Source of the DNA: Schaalia sp. HMT-172
GTDB taxonomy: Bacteria; Actinomycetota; Actinomycetes; Actinomycetales; Actinomycetaceae
Direction of reading: 5' to 3'
NCBI RefSeq assembly: GCF_030644365.1
Contig: NZ_CP130058.1
Coordinates: 2,108,001 to 2,172,000, forward strand
Length of the DNA stretch: 64,000 nt
The notes below the pieces were generated by a model. The model made no database searches, was not told where the DNA came from, and saw only the letters and a list, made by a program, of their open reading frames with translations. Both the position numbers and the translations under genes were made by a program. Positions 5,503 to 15,477 of this stretch are shown here, in pieces; within the stretch, counting starts at the first letter, position 1; each line of letters starts with the position of its first letter.

Positions 5503-5688
5503 GGTCCCCTCCTTCTATCAATAGTCTGTAGGCCGGGTAGGCTCCCCCTATCATAGGGCCCTCCCGCGCCCCGTGTGCGAGGCGTGCTCCCGCCTGTAGC
5601 GAACAGCACCGCCCGCTCCATCCCCCGCGCGCTTTCGCGTAGACTGACCCCACGGCAGTAATCACACGTCGCACACTGCGTCACATGG

Positions 5689-5748: not shown

Positions 5749-7797
5749 GTGTCACGAATCCGCCGTTTCAGCCTCGTCGCAGTTCTCGCAACGCTACTGC
5801 TCACCCTGGGCGCGCCCGCCTTCGCGACCGCACCGGTCACAACGAGCGGAATCGTCACCGACCCGGGCGGCTGGCTCTCCGACTCCGAGCGCGCGCTCAT
5901 CGAAACCGCCGCACGCTCCGCGCGCGCGAAGGGCATCTCCGTCGACGTCGTCATCGTCGACAACCTCTCGGGCATCGACGGCGTCGAATGGTGCCACAAG
6001 ACCCTCAATGCCTCCGGCACCTCGGACGGCAACATCATCTACTACATCGCCTACGACGAGCGCGTGGACGGCGAATGCGTCAACGGCGGCTCCATCTCGC
6101 AAAGCGCGCGCAACACCGCGCGCACGGCCGCCGAGTCAAAACTGTCCAGCAAGCCCCTGACCTCTTCCGACGCCGCCGCGGGTGCCGTCGCCTTCATTAA
6201 TACCCTCGCGAACAGGTCCACCACCTCCTCCAGCGGCACGAGTAGCTCGGGCAGCTCAGCGAGCTCCACCTCCTCCGAGGGTCGGGGCGGCGCCATCATC
6301 GTCCTCATTCTCATCGTCGGCGGCTTCATCGGCATCGGGCTCGCCGTGTCCTCCTCCTCGCGTCGCAACGAACGCGCCGCGGAGCAGGTGACCCGCACCA
6401 GAACCGAAGACGCCGAGAAGAAGGTCTCGCAGGCCAACCGCCAGCTCCTCGCGGCAGACGAGCAGGTGCGTTCCGCCACCGACGAGCTCGACTTCGCGCG
6501 CGCCCAGTTCGGCATCGCCGCGACCGACCAATTCGCCCGCACCCTGGAGGCCGCCCGGGACTCCGTCGCGCGCTGCTTTGACACTCAAAAGCAGATGAAT
6601 GACTCCACCAACCCGATCTCGCGCGCGAACCTGGCGACGAGCATCATGCGCGACCTGGGGACCTCCATGAACCCCCTGAGCGCCGTCCAGGCCTCCTTCG
6701 CGAAGAAGCGCAGCGAGCAGGCGACGCTGCCTAACCGCATCACCGAGACCCACGAACGCCTTATCGAGCAGCGCGCCGATCTGGAGCGCGCGAAGGCGGA
6801 GCTGGTGAGCATCGCGGGTATCTACCCCGCGCAGATGCTCGCCTCCCTCCAGGACAACCCCGAGCAGGCCGCCGCCCTGCTGACAACCGCCGGCACCGCC
6901 CTGGAGGAGGCCCAGCGGGTGGCCGAGACGGACCGGGCCCGCGCGGAGAGCGCCCTCGACACCGCACACCGCGCCCTCATGATGGCCACGCACCAGACCG
7001 ACGCGATCTTCTCCGCCAAGTCCGACCTCGACGCGATCCACGACCGCCTCGGTGCCGCCATCGGCTCCATTTCGTCGGATATCAACGACGTGTCGTCCCT
7101 GAAGGCGGACCCGGCCATCTTCGACCCGCTCGTCGCCGATGCGCGCGCGGCGATCTCCGAGGGACAGGCCGCCCTCCTCAACAATGGCGACCCGTTGGCG
7201 GCCCTCGAACACCTGCGCAGCGCGGAGTCAAACATCGACGCCGCGCTCGCCCCGCTGCGCTCCAAGCGGGACAACGACGAGAGGGCTCTGTCCGCCGCCC
7301 GTTCCCAGGTGTCCCTCGCCGAGTCCGCTGTCATGCGCGCCCAGCGCTACGTCCAGGGGCGACGCGGCGCCATGAACATGAACGTCCGCTCCACCCTCCA
7401 CGACGCCGAGCACTCCCTCGAGGCGGCCCGCGAGGCCCTGAAGAGCGACCCGAACGAAGCGACCTCCCAGGCATCGCGGGCGCGCACCCTCGCCGACCGC
7501 GTCATGGCCACGCCCCTGGCCCGACCCGATACGAGCTGGTACGACGAGGACGATGATGACGACTACCGCTCGAGCAGTTCCGGCTCCTCCCTCGGTGAGC
7601 AGATCCTGTGGTCGATCCTGTTCTCCAACAGCGGCAGCTCGCACTCGAGCTCCTCGTGGGGGTCCAGCTCGAGTTGGGGCAGCTCCCGCTCGAGTTGGGG
7701 CAGCTCCAGCTCCAGCCATTCCTCGGGCGGCGGGTTCTCCGGGAGCTCCGGCAGCTTCGGCGGCGGCGGGTTCTCCGGCTCCAAGGGCCACTTCTAA
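5749..7797 (+). CDS. TPM-domain coiled-coil membrane protein (paralogue A)
   Basis: 682 aa from a GTG at 5749, preceded by AGGAGG (5738-5743); the longer frame from 5698 would mask the signal peptide. Order: signal peptide (1-26, ending APAFA), TPM domain (about 30-150) with Cys82 and Cys110, Ser/Gly linker, one membrane span (about 181-201), a long charged helical region (about 210-600) with the shared FARAQFG block, a run of acidic residues, and a Ser/Gly/Trp-rich tail of about 80 residues absent from the other paralogues. Predicted topology places TPM outside and the coiled coil in the cytoplasm. TPM proteins are linked to envelope stress and PspA systems; the function here is inferred. 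Confidence 0.85.
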   Translation: MSRIRRFSLVAVLATLLLTLGAPAFATAPVTTSGIVTDPGGWLSDSERALIETAARSARAKGISVDVVIVDNLSGIDGVEWCHKTLNASGTSDGNIIYYIAYDERVDGECVNGGSISQSARNTARTAAESKLSSKPLTSSDAAAGAVAFINTLANRSTTSSSGTSSSGSSASSTSSEGRGGAIIVLILIVGGFIGIGLAVSSSSRRNERAAEQVTRTRTEDAEKKVSQANRQLLAADEQVRSATDELDFARAQFGIAATDQFARTLEAARDSVARCFDTQKQMNDSTNPISRANLATSIMRDLGTSMNPLSAVQASFAKKRSEQATLPNRITETHERLIEQRADLERAKAELVSIAGIYPAQMLASLQDNPEQAAALLTTAGTALEEAQRVAETDRARAESALDTAHRALMMATHQTDAIFSAKSDLDAIHDRLGAAIGSISSDINDVSSLKADPAIFDPLVADARAAISEGQAALLNNGDPLAALEHLRSAESNIDAALAPLRSKRDNDERALSAARSQVSLAESAVMRAQRYVQGRRGAMNMNVRSTLHDAEHSLEAAREALKSDPNEATSQASRARTLADRVMATPLARPDTSWYDEDDDDDYRSSSSGSSLGEQILWSILFSNSGSSHSSSSWGSSSSWGSSRSSWGSSSSSHSSGGGFSGSSGSFGGGGFSGSKGHF

Positions 7798-7979
7798 GCG
7801 CGTCGCACCGCCTGAGAGCCACCGCCGCGCACCCGGCTCGCGGCGGCCTGCCCGCCTGAGCGCCCACGTCGCGTACACTGACCCCAGACACACAACGTGA
7901 CGCAGATTGCAACGCTTTGGCGACATGGAGCCGCTTCTGAGCGCATGCCGTTCCGTTCACCACCGACCAGGAGGGCCAC

Positions 7980-9824
7980 GTGGCACTGATCCGACGCCTG
8001 GGCATCGCCGCCGTCATGATGGCAGCGGTGATGCTCGGTGGCTCGCCCGCCTTCGCAACCGAGCCGCTCACGACGAGCGGATACGTCAGCGATCCCGACG
8101 GCTTCCTCAGCGCGGAGCAACGGGGAATGATCGAGACGTCAGCTCAGTCTTTCTATTCCGCGTACTCCATGTACATCGACGTTGCAATCGTCCCCACTTT
8201 CTCCGACCAGGAACCATCGACGTGGTGCCGGGCCACCCTGATGCAATCGCGCACAGCAGATAAGGGCATCCTCTACGTCCTGGCCTACGAGGACGGCACC
8301 GACACCTACTGCACGGATGCGAACCTGGGGCAGAAGGCGGCGTCGGACCCGATGACCAAGATGATGCTGGACGACGCGCTCGGTTTCGCCCGCCGCAAGC
8401 ACACATCCACCCCCCTCACTCCCGACGAGGCGGCGGCGGGCGCTCGCGCGTTCATCGACGACGTGCGCTCCACGACCGACTTACACGCACGCATTGCTGC
8501 CAAGAGTCGCGAGAGGCAGCAAGCGGCAGAAGAAGAACGGAAGAGGGAGGCAGAAAGGAGCCTCGGCGGTCATATCACCTTGGGCGTCGTTGTGGTGATT
8601 GCAGCCGTCATCAGCATATGGGCCGCGGTGCGAGAAGACAACGGTCACGACGATTCCAGCGTCGATTCCGGGGCGTCCGTTCCGATCGTGGACCCCGTGA
8701 GGCGTGAGGCCCTGAGGGCCGCCGATGCGGCGAATCGGCGCCTGTCGGAAGCCGCGGAACAGATCCGCGCCGCCGAGGAGGACTGGAACTTCGCCCGCGC
8801 ACAGTTCGGCACCGCCGCAGCCGAAGAGTACGGTCGTCGCCTTGAGGCGGCCAAGGAGGCCGTCGCGCGCGGACGCGACACCTACACACAGATGTGCCAC
8901 ACCGCCGACTCCCTGGCTAAGAAACGCCTGGCGGCGACAATCACGAAGGATCTGGACGAGGTCCTCCCTCCCCTGGACAAGACGCGCGCGGAGTTTACGG
9001 CACGGCGAAGGGAGCGCTCCACGCTGCCCGCGCAGCTTAGTGAGGCTCGTGAGCGTCTGGTCGAGGAACTCGACGATCTGGAACGCTCGAAGGAAGAGCT
9101 CTCCAGCATCGCGGGTCTCTACCCCGATTCCATGCTTGCTTCCCTCCAGGACAATCCACAGCGCGCGGCGGCGTTCCTGGAGTCCGCTCGCTCGGCATTG
9201 GACACGGCGAGCGCGCATATCGAGGCGGACCCGACGCGTGCCGCCTCGGCGCTGGACACCGCGCAGCGTGCTCTGACGATGGCGAATGCGCAGACGGACG
9301 CGATCTTCTCGGCGAAGACCGATCTCGACGCGATCCGGGATCGTCTCGGCGCCGCCATCGGGGCCCTGTCCGGCGACATCGCCGAGGTTGACGGCCTCGA
9401 GGCCGACACGGCGTTCCTGGCCCCGCTGGTCGCCGACGCGCAGGAGGCGATAGCGCTCGGCCAGCGCGCCCTGGTCAACGACGAGGACCCCCTCGGCGCG
9501 CTCGAGACCCTTCGCGACGTGGAGCTTCGCCTGGAGGCGGTGCTCGCTCCCCTTCGAACGCAAGAAGCGGCGGCGCTCAAGGCGCACGAGAGCGCTCAGC
9601 GTCACATTCGTGACGCCGATGCGACCCTCGCGTGGGCGCGCAAGTCCTTGAGGAACCGCCAAGGCTCCGCCCTGTTTGACGCGAACAAGCTCCTGCGCGA
9701 AGCGGAACAGGCGATTGGCGAGGCTCGCGTAGCCCTCGACAAGGACCCTCTACAGGCGCGTGCGGCGGCCTCGAGGGCCACCGTCCTGACCAACCGCGCG
9801 CTCGCGACACCGGGGCGCCAGTAG
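7980..9824 (+). CDS. TPM-domain coiled-coil membrane protein (paralogue B)
   Basis: 614 aa from a GTG at 7980 with GGAGGG upstream. Signal peptide (1-26), TPM domain (about 30-150) with Cys83 and Cys111, a charged juxtamembrane segment, one membrane span (about 198-217), then about 390 residues of Ala/Glu/Arg-rich helix. It shares FARAQFG and YPDSMLASLQDNP blocks with its neighbours. The Cys pair, 28 residues apart as in paralogues A and D, suggests an extracytoplasmic disulfide. It lacks the Ser/Gly/Trp tail of A. Its last codons and stop lie inside the 296-bp direct repeat that recurs upstream of paralogue D. Confidence 0.83.
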   Translation: MALIRRLGIAAVMMAAVMLGGSPAFATEPLTTSGYVSDPDGFLSAEQRGMIETSAQSFYSAYSMYIDVAIVPTFSDQEPSTWCRATLMQSRTADKGILYVLAYEDGTDTYCTDANLGQKAASDPMTKMMLDDALGFARRKHTSTPLTPDEAAAGARAFIDDVRSTTDLHARIAAKSRERQQAAEEERKREAERSLGGHITLGVVVVIAAVISIWAAVREDNGHDDSSVDSGASVPIVDPVRREALRAADAANRRLSEAAEQIRAAEEDWNFARAQFGTAAAEEYGRRLEAAKEAVARGRDTYTQMCHTADSLAKKRLAATITKDLDEVLPPLDKTRAEFTARRRERSTLPAQLSEARERLVEELDDLERSKEELSSIAGLYPDSMLASLQDNPQRAAAFLESARSALDTASAHIEADPTRAASALDTAQRALTMANAQTDAIFSAKTDLDAIRDRLGAAIGALSGDIAEVDGLEADTAFLAPLVADAQEAIALGQRALVNDEDPLGALETLRDVELRLEAVLAPLRTQEAAALKAHESAQRHIRDADATLAWARKSLRNRQGSALFDANKLLREAEQAIGEARVALDKDPLQARAAASRATVLTNRALATPGRQ

Positions 9825-10090
9825 AGGAGGTGAACGACGACCCACTGACAATGGAGCCAGACGACCGCGGGCCACAGCGCTCGCGTCCGCACCCGGCCAC
9901 CGGGTCATCAACAAATCACAATAATGTGACGGACCGCATATCATAGTGAATGCGCGGCGGCCCACGATCATGTACCTTATTCTGTTTGCCACCAACCAAG
10001 GAGGATAGCGTGCCACGGATTCGACGCCTAGGCATCGCAGCCGTCATGACGGCCGCGATAGCGCTCGGTGGCGCGCCCGCGTTCGCGACC
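9795..10090 (+). repeat. Direct repeat copy 1 (296 bp)
   Basis: Matches 11345-11640 at a constant offset of 1550 bp with only about 9-10 differences counted by eye. It covers the C-terminal codons of paralogue B, the intergenic region with its promoter and RBS, and the signal-peptide codons of paralogue C. This is the footprint of a recent tandem duplication or gene conversion. Confidence 0.9.
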
Positions 10091-11332
10091 AAGGCCGTGG
10101 GAGGCGCAGAGTCTGTCGTTGCTTCCGCCTCCACCCTCCCACACGCAGGATTCTGGCCTGATGCGCACCGCGTCGCGGCTCAGTCCTCCTCCCCCAGCCG
10201 GTCCTCGTCGCCCTCCCCCAGCCGATCCTCGTCGTCCGGCTCGACCGAACACGGCCGAGGATTCCTCTGGATGGTGGCCGCGGCATGCATCGGGCTGATC
10301 AGCTTGGCCATCAAGGGCACCAAGGACTCGCAGGAGAGCGAGAGCGCCGACCCCGAGCCCGCACCCACCACCGACGATACGGCACGGCGCGCACGCCTCA
10401 AGGCGCGCGAGGAACGACTCAGGGCTGCCGAGGAGGCCCACCGCCGCGTGCAGGGTGCGAACAAGCGCCTCGTCGAGGCAGCCGAGCTCGTGCACACCGC
10501 CGAGCAGGAGTGGGACTATGCGCGCGCCCAGTTCGGACTGTCCGCGACCGAGCGTTTCCATCGCCAGGTCGAGGAGGCCAAGGCGGCTCTCTCACGCGGG
10601 TACGACACCCAGAAGCGCATCCAGGCCGCGGTTGTCCCCCAGACCAGGATGCGTCTCGCCGCCGAGATGTCGAACGACCTGGACGCGGCCGTGTCCCCCC
10701 TGCGCGCGGCCACCGCGGAATTCACCGCCAAGCGCGCCGAGCACGCCGCACTTCCTTCTCGGATCGCACAGGCGCGCGAGCGCCTGGCCGAGGAGCTCTC
10801 GGACCTTGAGCGTGCCAGGGAGGAGCTGGCGAGCATCGCGACCATTTACCCCGCCAAGACCCTCGCTTCGCTTCAGGGCAACCCGGAGCGTGCCGCGCAG
10901 CTGCTCGAATCCGCCCGCGCCGCGCTGGAGACGGCGAGCGCGACGGTCACCAAGGACAACGCCCGCGCCGCCTCGGCCCTGGACACCGCGCGCCGTGCCC
11001 TGACCATGGCCAATGCGCAGACGGACGCGATCTTCTCCGCGAAGACCGATCTCGACGCGATCCGGGACCGCCTCGGCACCGCCATCGGTTCCCTCTCCGC
11101 TGACATTGGAGAGCTTGAGAGCCTCGAGTCCGACACGGTGCTCCTGGCCCCGCTGGTCGCCGACGCGCAGGAGGCAATCGCCGTCGGCCAGGCCGCCCTC
11201 ATCGCCAACGACAGCCCGCTCGAGGCGCTCGACCACCTGCGCACCGTGCAGGCCAGGCTCCGCGCCACCCTCGAGCCACTGCGCGAGGCCACCCCGGCCT
11301 CGCGCCCAACGCCCGGTGAGGATCGATCATGA
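10010..11332 (+). CDS. Coiled-coil membrane protein that has lost its TPM domain (paralogue C)
   Basis: 440 aa from a GTG at 10010 with AAGGAGG upstream. It has the same signal peptide as paralogue D, then, instead of a TPM domain, a short Ser/Pro/Arg-rich stretch, followed directly by a membrane span (about 84-101) and the shared helical region with the EWDYARAQFG and YPAKTLASLQGNP blocks. The Cys pair of the other members is missing because the whole TPM domain is missing. The frame is intact and bounded by the duplication repeats, so it reads as a domain-deleted paralogue rather than a pseudogene. It could act as a partner or regulator of the TPM-bearing members. Confidence 0.8.
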   Translation: MPRIRRLGIAAVMTAAIALGGAPAFATKAVGGAESVVASASTLPHAGFWPDAHRVAAQSSSPSRSSSPSPSRSSSSGSTEHGRGFLWMVAAACIGLISLAIKGTKDSQESESADPEPAPTTDDTARRARLKAREERLRAAEEAHRRVQGANKRLVEAAELVHTAEQEWDYARAQFGLSATERFHRQVEEAKAALSRGYDTQKRIQAAVVPQTRMRLAAEMSNDLDAAVSPLRAATAEFTAKRAEHAALPSRIAQARERLAEELSDLERAREELASIATIYPAKTLASLQGNPERAAQLLESARAALETASATVTKDNARAASALDTARRALTMANAQTDAIFSAKTDLDAIRDRLGTAIGSLSADIGELESLESDTVLLAPLVADAQEAIAVGQAALIANDSPLEALDHLRTVQARLRATLEPLREATPASRPTPGEDRS

Positions 11333-11344
11333 CGCCTCTGCCCA

Positions 11345-11640
11345 CGCGCGCTCGCGACACCGGGGCGCCAGTAGAGGAGGTGAACGACGACCCACTGACA
11401 ATGGAGCCAGACGATCGCGGGCCACAGCGCTCGCGTCCGCACCCGGCCACCGGGTCATCAACGACCCACAATAATGTGACGGACCGCATATCATAGTGAA
11501 CGCGCGGCGGCCCACAATCATGTATCTTATTCTGTTTGCCACCAACCAAGGAGGATAGCGTGCCACGGATTCGACGCCTAGGCATCGCGGCCGTCATGAC
11601 GGCCGCGATAGCGCTCGGTGGCACGCCCGCGTTCGCGACC
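11345..11640 (+). repeat. Direct repeat copy 2 (296 bp)
   Basis: Second copy of the repeat at 9795-10090. Here the first about 30 bp are a non-coding remnant of the C-terminal end of a TPM paralogue (they end in a TAG at the position equivalent to paralogue B's stop), showing that this gap once followed a full-length B-like gene. Confidence 0.9.
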
Positions 11641-13194
11641 GAGGCGCTCACGCCAAGCGGATACGTCACTGATGTGGACGGCTTCCTCAGCGACGAAGAA
11701 CGCACAACGATCGAGACTCGTGCAGAGTCCTTCTCCTCCAAGTATTCCACTGTTATCACCATCGTCATCGTCCCCACCTTTTCCGACCAGACACCATCCG
11801 AATGGTGCCAGGCCACCCTCACCAAGGTGCAGGACAACGACAATGTCCTTCTCTACGCCGTCGACTACGAGGAGGGAATAGACACATACTGCTTTGGCCA
11901 GGAGCTTACTCAGTGGATGCGCAACGATTCCATCGTCAAAAGGTACGTGGACAGCGCACTATCGGAAGCCCATCGGACATACACATCGACTCCGTTGACC
12001 TCCAAAGAGGCAGCGGCGGGCCCCAAGACCTTAATCAACAGTCTGCGCAGCTCCTTTGACACATACAAGCGCATTCGTTCCGAATACGACGCAAGCAGCC
12101 AGAACCTGAAGGATGAAGCCAGAAAGGAAGAAATCAAGAGCTTTTTTGCGTTCCTCATCGTGGGCTTACTTCTCGTCTTCGGCATTTTTTTTGGCCACTG
12201 GAAAAAGCTGCGGGAGCAAGAAGAACACGACGCAGAAATCGAATCCGCTGCATGGCGAATCCAACACCGCAGGGAAGAACGCGACGACAAGGCCGCTCAG
12301 CACGCTGCGGACAAGCTGGTCCAGCAGGCGAATGACCGACTGGCCGCAGCCGATCTGGAAGTGCGCGATGCCGTGAAGGAATGGGACTACGCCCGCGCAC
12401 AGTTCGGCATCGCCGCGACTGAACAGTTCCGCAACCGGATTAAGGGAGCGAAGGAAGCCCTGTCTCGCGGGGACGCCCTCCAGCAGAAGTGCCGCATAAC
12501 CTCGAACCCTGAGACTAGGAAGACCCTGGCGACCCAAATCATCAGTGATCTCGACACGCACATGGGTTTGTTGAGCGACGCGCAGGCCCCTTTCAGCACG
12601 AAGCGTTCCGAGCTCACCTCACTGCCGACCCGCCTGGCAGAGGCGCGTGAACGCCTGGCAGAAGAACTGGCGGCCGTGGAACGTTCCAGGGACGAGTTGG
12701 CGACAATCGCCGGAATCTACCCCGGCACGATACTAGCCTCGCTCGAAGACAACCCCGACAAGGCAGCATCTTTGCTCGCCTCGGCGCGCAGCGCCATTGA
12801 GTCTGCCCAGGCAATCATCGACACGGACACCGAGCTCGCCACCTCTGCTGTCGACACCGCCGAGCGTGCACTCCTCATGGCGCACCATGAGATGAACGCT
12901 ATCTTCACGGCAAAATTAGACCTGGACAACATCGAGGAGCGGCTCGGCGCCGCTATCGCGTCCCTTTCCTCGGACATCGAGGAAGCCGACCTCCTGCAAA
13001 CTGATCCGACACTACTTGCTCCTCTCATCACCGATGCCCGTGCGGCGATCACACGGGCTCAGGAAGCCCTTATCCACAACGACAATCCGCTCGACGCTCT
13101 CGAGCATGCTCGCGCCGTCGAGACCAAGCTGGACGCTACGCTTGACCCGCTTCGTACGGCCGAGCACCAATCCGGAGGAACACGCTCACCATAA
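11560..13194 (+). CDS. TPM-domain coiled-coil membrane protein (paralogue D)
   Basis: 544 aa from a GTG at 11560 preceded by AAGGAGG. Signal peptide nearly identical to paralogue C, TPM domain (about 30-150) with Cys83 and Cys111, membrane span (about 194-213), then a helical region with the EWDYARAQFG and YPGTILASLEDNP blocks. The segment around 12050-12260 is visibly more AT-rich than the other paralogues, so this copy has diverged in composition or was exchanged from a relative. The gap to pspA is only about 130 bp without an obvious terminator, so read-through into pspA is plausible. Confidence 0.82.
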   Translation: MPRIRRLGIAAVMTAAIALGGTPAFATEALTPSGYVTDVDGFLSDEERTTIETRAESFSSKYSTVITIVIVPTFSDQTPSEWCQATLTKVQDNDNVLLYAVDYEEGIDTYCFGQELTQWMRNDSIVKRYVDSALSEAHRTYTSTPLTSKEAAAGPKTLINSLRSSFDTYKRIRSEYDASSQNLKDEARKEEIKSFFAFLIVGLLLVFGIFFGHWKKLREQEEHDAEIESAAWRIQHRREERDDKAAQHAADKLVQQANDRLAAADLEVRDAVKEWDYARAQFGIAATEQFRNRIKGAKEALSRGDALQQKCRITSNPETRKTLATQIISDLDTHMGLLSDAQAPFSTKRSELTSLPTRLAEARERLAEELAAVERSRDELATIAGIYPGTILASLEDNPDKAASLLASARSAIESAQAIIDTDTELATSAVDTAERALLMAHHEMNAIFTAKLDLDNIEERLGAAIASLSSDIEEADLLQTDPTLLAPLITDARAAITRAQEALIHNDNPLDALEHARAVETKLDATLDPLRTAEHQSGGTRSP

Positions 13195-13326
13195 CGACGA
13201 TTCCTCCACCACAGACGCCGGCTCAGTGACCGGTTTGGGCTCGCCGGAGCCCACCCACCGACCTGCGGGGCCCTGGCCTCGCGCTCAACCCGCGCACGAG
13301 CGCACATCACCACAAAGGAGAACATC

Positions 13327-14049
13327 ATGGCTGAGAAGCAGACGATCCTGGGCCGTATCGCCCAGCTCGCGAAGGCCAACATCAACGCGATCCTCGACAA
13401 GGCCGAGGACCCGCAGAAGATGATCGACCAGCTGATCCGCGACTACACCAACTCCATCGTCGAGGCCGAGAACGCGATCGCCCAGACCCTGGGCAACCTG
13501 CGCATGGCCGAGAAGGACTACGAGGAGGACGTCAAGGCCGCAGCCGACTGGGGTCAGAAGGCCGCCGCCGCCTCCGCCAAGGCCGACTCCCTGCGCGCCG
13601 CCGGTGACGAGGCCGGAGCCACCAAGTGGGATGACCTGGCCAAGGTCGCCATCGGCAAGCAGATCCAGTTCGAGAACGAGGTCAAGACCGAGGAGCCCGC
13701 CCTTAAGGCTCAGCGTGAGGTCGCCGAGCGCCTGAAGAAGGGCCTGTCGCAGATGAAGGACAAGCTCTCCGAGCTCAAGTCCCGCCGCGACCAGCTCATC
13801 GCCCGCGAGAAGACCGCAAAGGCGCAGGCTCAGGTCACCGACGCCCTCTCCTCCATCAACATCCTGGATCCCACGAGCGAGCTCGGCCGCTTCGAGGATC
13901 GCGTGCGTCGCCAGGAGGCCCTGGCTCAGGGCAAGGTCGAGCTGGCCGCCTCCAGCCTCGACGCCCAGTTCGCGGAGCTCGAGACCGACTCCTCGCAGAT
14001 CGAGATCGAGGCCCGCCTGGCTGCCCTCAAGGGCAAGTCGGCGGAGTGA
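13327..14049 (+). CDS. pspA: PspA/IM30 family phage-shock protein
   Basis: 240-aa, almost entirely helical peripheral membrane protein of the PspA/IM30 (ESCRT-III-like) family, which protects the inner membrane and keeps the proton-motive force under envelope stress. Family features are the amphipathic N-terminus, the ILDKAEDPQKMIDQLIRD segment, and heptad-rich helices through residue 220. AAAGGAG precedes the ATG. It closes the array of TPM coiled-coil proteins, and linkage of TPM-domain proteins with PspA is known from comparative genomics of the Psp system, supporting a shared envelope-stress role. No pspB/pspC-like or clgR-like gene is nearby. Confidence 0.92.
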   Translation: MAEKQTILGRIAQLAKANINAILDKAEDPQKMIDQLIRDYTNSIVEAENAIAQTLGNLRMAEKDYEEDVKAAADWGQKAAAASAKADSLRAAGDEAGATKWDDLAKVAIGKQIQFENEVKTEEPALKAQREVAERLKKGLSQMKDKLSELKSRRDQLIAREKTAKAQAQVTDALSSINILDPTSELGRFEDRVRRQEALAQGKVELAASSLDAQFAELETDSSQIEIEARLAALKGKSAE

Positions 14050-14815: not shown

Positions 14816-15400
14816 TCACACCCCACCGATGAAGTATGGTGCCTCGATGACGTCGTGGGCAAAGCGCTGCGCCTCTTCCGCGGCGCCGAGTGCCGGAGGC
14901 CCATCGAGGACGAGGGTGGCGAGGCCGTGCACGTAGGCCCACAGGGTGACCTCCGCGCGCGGGTCGTCAGTGCCGTACGCAAGCGCGGCTAGCGAGCGTA
15001 GCTGGGTGCGCGCAGCCAGGCTGGCCGCACGCAGGCCCGAGTGAGCGCCCGCGTCGTACATGTCTGATCGGAACATGATCCGGAAGACACCGGGGTTCGT
15101 CAGCGCGCAGGCGAGGTAGGCGTGTCCCGCGGCGCGCGTCACGTCCTGCGGCGCACGTCCCTCGCTCGTCTCCCTCGCCTCACGCAGCGCCCGTTCGAGG
15201 TCTCGGTATCCCTCCTCGACGAGGGCGACGAGGATGGCCTCGCGCCCCTGGAAGTAGTGGTACGGGGCTTGGTGGGTGCAGCCCGCGCGTCGTGCGACCT
15301 CGCGCATGGACAGGGATGATGGCCCGCCCTCGTTGAGCAGGTTGCGGCTGATGCGAAGGATCGTCTCGCGCAGGCCATCGGGGTTCGTATGGCGCGTCAT
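14816..15400 (-). CDS. TetR family transcriptional regulator
   Basis: 194 aa. N-terminal helix-turn-helix (about residues 10-55; SMREVARRAGCTHQAPYHYF is the recognition region) and a C-terminal all-helical ligand domain of the WHG type. The start at 15400 is supported by TACACT (15407-15412) exactly 6 nt upstream (leaderless) and by family length; the frame to 15451 would run into the operator. It is divergent from the flavoprotein-reductase fusion, and two palindromic operators lie between them, so it most likely represses that gene and itself. Confidence 0.88.
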   Translation of the reverse strand: MTRHTNPDGLRETILRISRNLLNEGGPSSLSMREVARRAGCTHQAPYHYFQGREAILVALVEEGYRDLERALREARETSEGRAPQDVTRAAGHAYLACALTNPGVFRIMFRSDMYDAGAHSGLRAASLAARTQLRSLAALAYGTDDPRAEVTLWAYVHGLATLVLDGPPALGAAEEAQRFAHDVIEAPYFIGGV

Positions 15401-15431
15401 GATCTCAGTGTAGCCGAGAAACAACCACGAC

Positions 15432-15477
15432 TTGACAGTGTCTACCAACACATGTTCCCATAAGTAGACACTGTCTA
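15432..15477. promoter_or_regulatory. Paired TetR-type operators
   Basis: Two 13-bp palindromes in the tetR-oxidoreductase gap: TTGACAGTGTCTA (15432-15444, one mismatch) and TAGACACTGTCTA (15465-15477, perfect). Centres are 33 bp apart, about three helical turns, and the two sites are inverted copies of one another (GACAGTGTCTAC / GTAGACACTGTC). This suits two TetR dimers on one face of the DNA. Confidence 0.78.

Follow-up and report, generated by a model that had tools for sequence, protein, structure and literature searches.

In Bacillus subtilis, pspA-ydjGHI encodes a TPM-domain membrane protein beside PspA. This protein, YdjH, has been assigned as a TPM protein in passages of a survey of phage shock protein (PSP) systems (PMC11237479), and it is reported to interact with PspA in two-hybrid tests and to be needed for PspA foci (PMC8581546). 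The same survey already has TPM-PspA gene neighbourhoods in print, a linkage that a first-pass annotation of the DNA studied here had correctly taken as known. In Actinomyces oris (NZ_CP116225.1) a TPM gene lies directly 5′ of pspA, the two being annotated as 'TPM domain-containing protein' and 'PspA/IM30 family protein'. Here we describe a locus of this kind in which four tandem paralogues of a TPM-type membrane protein precede pspA. It lies in the window, a stretch of 64,000 nucleotides (NZ_CP130058.1, positions 2,108,001 to 2,172,000) from the 2.53 Mb genome of Schaalia sp. HMT-172, a member of the Schaalia odontolytica clade of oral actinobacteria; positions within the locus are given in window coordinates. 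The locus differs from pspA-ydjGHI in having four copies where YdjH is a single copy, and in that no YdjG-like or band-7 (YdjI-like) protein was found in the ten neighbouring window frames scanned with Pfam. It differs from the A. oris pair in copy number, four against one, and in that no gene corresponding to the NYN gene found after pspA in A. oris was recognised in the window. The five genes form a run in one direction (5749-14049, plus strand), and the open frames proposed for them were confirmed, all of them being intact:

5749..7797, plus strand: paralogue 1, with signal peptide, TPM domain containing Cys82/Cys110, a linker rich in Ser, a single membrane span, a helical domain predicted to be cytoplasmic, and Ser/Gly/Trp tail
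6493..6513, plus strand: FARAQFG block of paralogue 1, residues 249-255 (alignment A4)
7549..7797, plus strand: Ser/Gly/Trp low-complexity tail of paralogue 1, residues 601-682, ancestral, with none in paralogues 2-4
7980..9824, plus strand: paralogue 2, with signal peptide, TPM (Cys83/Cys111), charged juxtamembrane stretch, span and helical domain; tail-less
10007..11332, plus strand: paralogue 3, with signal peptide, short Ser-rich segment replacing TPM, span and helical domain; tail-less
11560..13194, plus strand: paralogue 4, with signal peptide, TPM (Cys83/Cys111), span and a shorter helical domain; tail-less
13327..14049, plus strand: pspA, of the subfamily accompanying the TPM-helical protein (Pfam PF04012, E 1.1e-37)

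Pairing of pspA with a gene for a TPM-span-helical protein is widespread among actinobacteria. Within the genus, a profile search detected the family in 30 of 35 genomes and PspA in 29, with both present in 28 and neither in four; the family occurs without PspA in two genomes (G021, with 70% completeness, and G040, at a contig end) and PspA without the family in one (G047, at a contig end). Of the 28 genomes holding both, 24 have the genes side by side on one strand, G022 being counted by its third copy, while the other four show a gap of 1.4 kb (G003), a convergent arrangement (G048) or a gap of ~3 kb (G039 and G041). A scan of GTDB with patterns derived from the genus gave 126 relatives, of which the best 80, corresponding to 78 loci, were kept; named relatives come from Schaalia, Pauljensenia and Actinomyces and include S. 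odontolytica and A. bouchesdurhonensis. In 66 of these 78 loci pspA follows on the same strand within 1.5 kb. Among the other 12, two have 3.2-3.4 kb between the genes (L073, L074), one is convergent (L087) and one has overlapping frames which fail the distance rule (L134). No pspA was seen in the remaining eight, five of which stop at most 0.4 kb from the gene (L083, L096, L127, L143, L146) and one of which has masked letters (L077); the last two are Nesterenkonia loci without pspA over 7.8 and 1.5 kb (L103, L123). In an even draw of 197 genomes from the class, with six candidates scored per genome so that counts are lower bounds, at least 45 genomes had a strong match of nearly full length (E ~1e-58 or lower, read off the table by hand), and a PspA gene was present in 45 of these 45 compared to 163 of 197 overall. 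Outside family f19 the pair is adjacent in 27 of 29 strong-match genomes, the two others (G407, G467) being cut by contig ends. An earlier draw from the phylum, made with a narrower profile and four candidates scored per genome, found the protein in at least 40 of 298 genomes. Overall, the scatter of homologues independent of pspA that would have spoken against the first-pass proposal was not found.

The partner PspA is a distinct subfamily, and in two genera an extra pspA goes with the helical protein. A second pspA is found in 4/4 strong-match genomes of g21 versus 1/15 without such a match, and in 9/9 versus 0/3 in g220. Pooling both genera, the extra gene is present in 13/13 carriers and 1/18 others (Fisher p 6.8e-8); the association persists when a g21 genome with a split copy, G308, is counted as a carrier (13/14 versus 1/17, Fisher p 9e-7). 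A narrow profile built from linked PspA alone scored 18/18 linked PspA proteins at 357-426 bits, including eight outside the training set at 357-416 bits, and 15/15 unlinked PspA proteins at 29-43 bits, a gap that marks a subfamily rather than a function. By the same scores, the two f19 PspA proteins sampled are not of the linked kind. We used this score gap in place of a PspA tree, which was spoiled by fragmentary unlinked rows.

All four paralogues have the signal peptide, single membrane span and long helix originally attributed to them, the signal peptides and spans being assigned by eye. Their kinship is far beyond chance, paralogue 2 as query retrieving paralogues 4, 1 and 3 at E 1.5e-138, 1.8e-121 and 1.5e-91. 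TPM (PF04536) scored over the curated cut-off of 22.1 bits in paralogue 2 (E 8.2e-6) and paralogue 4 (E 3.5e-8) and just under it in paralogue 1 (E 1.9e-4, 21.9 bits), while the Pfam scan gave no match in paralogue 3, in agreement with the three TPM copies and one TPM-less copy of the first-pass annotation. The three TPM domains contain a Cys pair (residues 82/110, 83/111 and 83/111) spaced, as had been noted, by exactly 28 residues. The same spacing occurs in 19 of the 20 TPM-bearing genus rows of alignment A4, the other having 31, and in 2 of 32 rows from other named loci. The best solved structure match, 2kpt_A (E 4.1e-23), has residues other than Cys at both aligned positions. It is likely that the pair forms a disulfide specific to this lineage. 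The supposedly common FARAQFG block is present as such in paralogues 1 and 2 but reads YARAQFG in paralogues 3 and 4. Its final residues, Phe254 and Gly255 in paralogue 1 numbering, are invariant in 56/56 rows of A4; the helical block is conserved outside this strain. Pfam and NCBIfam matches to the helical domain all remained below curated cut-offs, and a search for internal repeats within it returned weak matches only.

The Ser/Gly/Trp tail was at first regarded as a gain of one copy. Alignment and tree evidence indicate the opposite, an old tail that paralogues 2-4 have lost, since all 11 TPM-bearing single-copy genus relatives possess a Ser/Gly-rich tail (alignment A1) and paralogues 2-4 form a later, tail-less clade. 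In the helical-domain trees window paralogue 1 groups with the single-copy gene of G010 (support 100/99), and one 12-row clade (100/99) inside the odontolytica clade unites paralogues 2, 3 and 4 and their counterparts. The three TPM-less single-copy members in A1 (L017-L019) are tail-less. TPM itself was lost repeatedly in relatives: it was lost outside the array as well, because the sole copies of four genus genomes (G001, G002, G014, G048) match only past TPM. A single origin for the TPM-less array copies, window paralogue 3 and that of G022, is compatible with the approximately unbiased (AU) test (p 0.286). Multiple copies were found in seven of the 35 genus genomes (G000, G011, G019, G022, G023, G039, G041), not counting G042 and G044, where a further hit spans just 75-81 codons at E close to 1e-3, and in five of the 78 named loci (L072-L075, L078), all from the odontolytica clade. 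Within the genomes and loci searched the tandem array is confined to one clade.

The part predicted to lie outside the cell varies. Between G019 and G022 the first 30 codons of paralogue 2 have a nucleotide identity of 96%; across TPM and the linker it drops to 73-48%, and it recovers to 84-96% in the helical domain, whose end is lower (74%). Paralogue 1 of G023 and G041 follows a similar course (92, then 59-74, then mostly 82-93%). We examined such profiles with a breakpoint scan at fourfold sites, in which two breakpoints delimit a self-chosen segment and which replaces Fisher tests on hand-picked pairs. Eight of the 29 pairs scanned reached the permutation floor (p 0.003), and in seven of them the segment extended from about residues 34-100 to 172-220, corresponding to the ectodomain through to where the membrane span ends. 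The eighth had its segment within the helical domain; another pair with p 0.010 also pointed outside the ectodomain, and the 20 others were weaker. Ectodomain exchange in relatives appears to have occurred, in about two events, as six of the seven pairs compare the same two species groups. In TPM the ratio of nonsynonymous to synonymous substitution rates (dN/dS) ranged over 0.14-0.69 for 15 of 16 pairs, the exception (1.07) being a pair with hardly any synonymous changes. Values for the middle part of the helical domain were 0.00-0.08 for seven paralogue 1 pairs, 0.05-0.06 for two paralogue 4 pairs and 0.21-0.41 for seven paralogue 2 pairs; the inside domain is under purifying selection.

On balance, and by a modest margin in its favour, we interpret these proteins by analogy as membrane anchors that recruit a dedicated PspA and that have been expanded into a set with variable outside modules. 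The ancestral unit would be a two-gene module of a single-pass membrane protein and its dedicated PspA, the former with TPM outside and the long helical domain and Gly/Ser tail inside. By analogy with YdjH, the helical domain would be the part facing PspA and TPM the outward part; the membrane protein would most likely anchor its PspA at the inner face of the membrane, with PspA assembly tuned by the state of the outside domain, as is thought for YdjH in B. subtilis. In the odontolytica clade the anchor gene would then have been duplicated in tandem, the copies keeping the inside domain and dropping the tail while they vary, exchange or lose the outside domain, such that several outside modules could feed one PspA. 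In this scheme we infer the topology, the contact with PspA, recruitment, sensing and the action of all copies on the same PspA. The idea of a PspA-linked family whose members differ in their outside module, already put forward in the first-pass annotation, is supported by the data.

Several observations weigh against this interpretation. In f19 the membrane protein is not beside pspA in any of 16 strong-match genomes; these proteins resemble those of the window in having TPM, span and helical domain along most of the profile, and therefore the membrane protein can exist without an adjacent PspA. The split copy of G308, which lies in two frames (E 4e-56, under the cut), is unlinked in a genome with one pspA, and G234 contains one further unlinked, TPM-bearing family member. 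Several f17 genomes have further dispersed members, mostly TPM-less, among them unlinked proteins of 440-460 amino acids with the helical domain but no TPM (L149 4091-5416, L150 3902-5242, L151 3393-4733), which form a separate branch of the family. The helical domain shows no profile similarity to PspA, with its ESCRT-III type of helical fold, that would make it a relative (hhalign E 0.78 over 10 columns). As to the exchange of ectodomains, the scan covered 29 of 69 possible orthologue pairs, 40 being outside preset limits (too divergent or with too few differences), and six of the seven ectodomain pairs are comparisons of G022, G039 and G041 with G019 and G011 and so are not independent. Window paralogue 4 gave no breakpoint signal in the scan (p 0.15 and 0.28), and paralogues 1 and 2, too divergent for the scan, had equal synonymous divergence in TPM and the helical domain in one pair each. 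Genomes of g21 also hold further TPM-less forms of the helical protein; across the forms in f17 and g21, the inside domain is thus the constant part and TPM an optional head.

A different role, which we regard as possible though rather unlikely, is that the TPM-helical proteins are chaperone-like factors for the assembly of membrane complexes, with PspA a co-worker rather than the output and the array serving different clients. A chaperone-like role has been proposed for TPM beside PspA in passages of the PSP survey (PMC11237479), and the retention in f19 of a TPM-helical protein without adjacent pspA would fit such a role; the coupling to a particular PspA subfamily, however, suggests that PspA is the main partner.

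We are more doubtful still that the array represents surface receptors undergoing diversification, in which outside modules would be exchanged and deleted under pressure from envelope contacts (an epibiont, for example Saccharibacteria TM7x, or phage or bacteriocin) while the constant inside domain signals to one dedicated PspA. A lead in this direction comes from a published table of TM7x hosts, where 'TPM domain' is listed for 10/10 resistant, 3/3 nonpermissive and 4/10 permissive hosts (PMC7784981). Paralogues 2 and 4 of the clade score 26.3-38.2 bits for TPM, over the Pfam cut-off in 6/6 tested, compared to 15.6-24.8 bits or no match for seven paralogue 1 and single-copy proteins, so array copies with TPM are probably missing from the permissive genomes listed as TPM-negative. 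The lead is weak: the strains differ by ancestry, the paralogue 1 score sits at the cut-off and depends on the computation (19.1 versus 22.9 bits in G038), and a further TPM protein with borderline scores is encoded elsewhere in the genus. Moreover, 'Tetracyclin repressor-like, C-terminal domain' has the same counts among the listed TM7x hosts (PMC7784981), a description which matches PF13305 in a gene beside pspA and which several Pfam families may share. A term search of the main texts of further S. odontolytica/TM7x studies gave no mention of PspA, TPM or TPM domain.

With about the same low probability, the array could be neutral, a series of tandem duplicates under degradation in which the loss of TPM and tail is decay. 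Copy number differs among close species, and an in-frame stop interrupts paralogue 2 of S. odontolytica (G039) early on. The array is moreover split from pspA by inserted genes in G041 and G022, with a similar-sized gap in G039. The DNA between array and pspA in G041 and G039 is of low GC content (46% in L051 and L052; L051 5800-8600, L052 5430-8350), and that in G022 (L054 1300-4100) is similar. The L051 insert holds an LtrA gene (PF06772, E 7.6e-58) and short frames that by eye resemble transposase remnants. Against decay, the trees show orthologues of paralogues 2 and 4 maintained in several species, the mid-helical dN/dS is well under 1 and the window frames are intact.

Least probable is a role in cell division or the cell wall. 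Cg2496 of Corynebacterium and Rv2345 of Mycobacterium are presumably members of the TPM-helical family. Both are listed as candidate ZipA-like proteins, with the statement in the same source that involvement in division remains to be validated (PMC3989709), and loss of YdjG or YdjH in B. subtilis has been tied to delocalised peptidoglycan synthesis (PMC8581546), but the linkage in the present data is to pspA.

Returning to the anchor interpretation, the combination of TPM, helix and PspA is already known as a kind, which qualifies the initial view of an undescribed system. Neither in the main-text passages of the PSP survey (PMC11237479) nor elsewhere in the openly accessible literature searched did we find an array of tandem TPM genes, a dedicated subfamily of PspA or an exchange of ectodomains. 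What appears new, judged from the genomes compared, is the dedicated PspA subfamily, the extra pspA that tracks the helical protein, the tandem array and the ectodomain mosaicism in relatives. If correct, the interpretation would offer a tractable case of how PspA-type membrane repair in Gram-positive bacteria is directed in place and time, together with a naturally occurring set of anchors with a common inside domain and differing outsides, the comparison of which could separate sensing from recruitment. It may also connect envelope repair with tolerance of an epibiont, since A. odontolyticus XH001, on which the cultivated epibiont TM7x lives, belongs to this clade (PMC4742689).

The genes of the array have GTG starts with ribosome-binding sites (5749, 7980, 10007, 11560) and are loosely packed, with gaps of 182, 182, 227 and 132 bases; pspA directly follows the array, as proposed, at the last of these distances. 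Four further features lie in or upstream of the array:

5638..5651, plus strand: CGTANACTGACCCC block ~100 bases 5′ of paralogue 1, a candidate -10 region
7872..7885, plus strand: CGTANACTGACCCC block 5′ of paralogue 2, the same block as before paralogue 1
9795..10094, plus strand: copy 1 of a 300-base repeat, covering the end of paralogue 2, the intergenic leader and the signal peptide of paralogue 3
11345..11644, plus strand: copy 2 of the repeat (97% identity to copy 1), ahead of and into paralogue 4

The repeat may be the footprint of recent duplication or gene conversion, its 97% identity matching what unequal recombination or gene conversion would leave. The CGTANACTGACCCC block was not found ahead of window paralogues 3 and 4, and its three matches in the window at up to 2 mismatches were equalled in 13 of 100 shuffles and are not significant. 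By eye, the CGTANACT core is present ~100 bases upstream in 17 of 21 clade leaders, among them the two that precede window paralogues 1 and 2; before paralogue 4 of G011 it has one mismatch, and it was not seen before window paralogues 3 and 4 or G023 paralogue 2. Promoter-like sites numbered 2 versus 0.8 expected, and terminator-like sites were at chance level (5 versus 5.0). From these leaders, separate putative promoters for the array copies seem likely.

Upstream, the divergent neighbours are a cold-shock gene (PF00313, E 1.3e-15) and a DUF3027 gene. Downstream, a TetR-type gene (14816-15451, minus strand; PF00440 and PF13305, TetR_C_33) lies 0.8 kb past pspA. A PF13305 gene of this type adjoins pspA in 6 of 10 clade genomes (window, G010, G011, G023, G039, G043), in single-copy and array genomes alike and regardless of copy number. 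In the ten neighbouring frames Pfam detected no PspF, PspB/C, ClgR, LiaRS-type regulator or PspC partner, the sole regulator being of the TetR type. Another TPM-domain protein, in a frame of ~560 amino acids, is encoded outside the window at G000:C1:1025157, with similar frames in relatives. In G022, equal-scoring pspA genes are present on three contigs (L053, which is G022:C48 1-4045, L054 and L055), with a TPM-less paralogue between two pspA genes; this multiplicity reflects either tandem duplication or an assembly artefact. Finally, the public contigs L074, L078 and L086, titled Xylanimonas cellulosilytica 352_XCEL or Sanguibacter keddieii 250_SKED, correspond to genomes (G022 and G011) placed in the genus of the window and are probably mislabelled.

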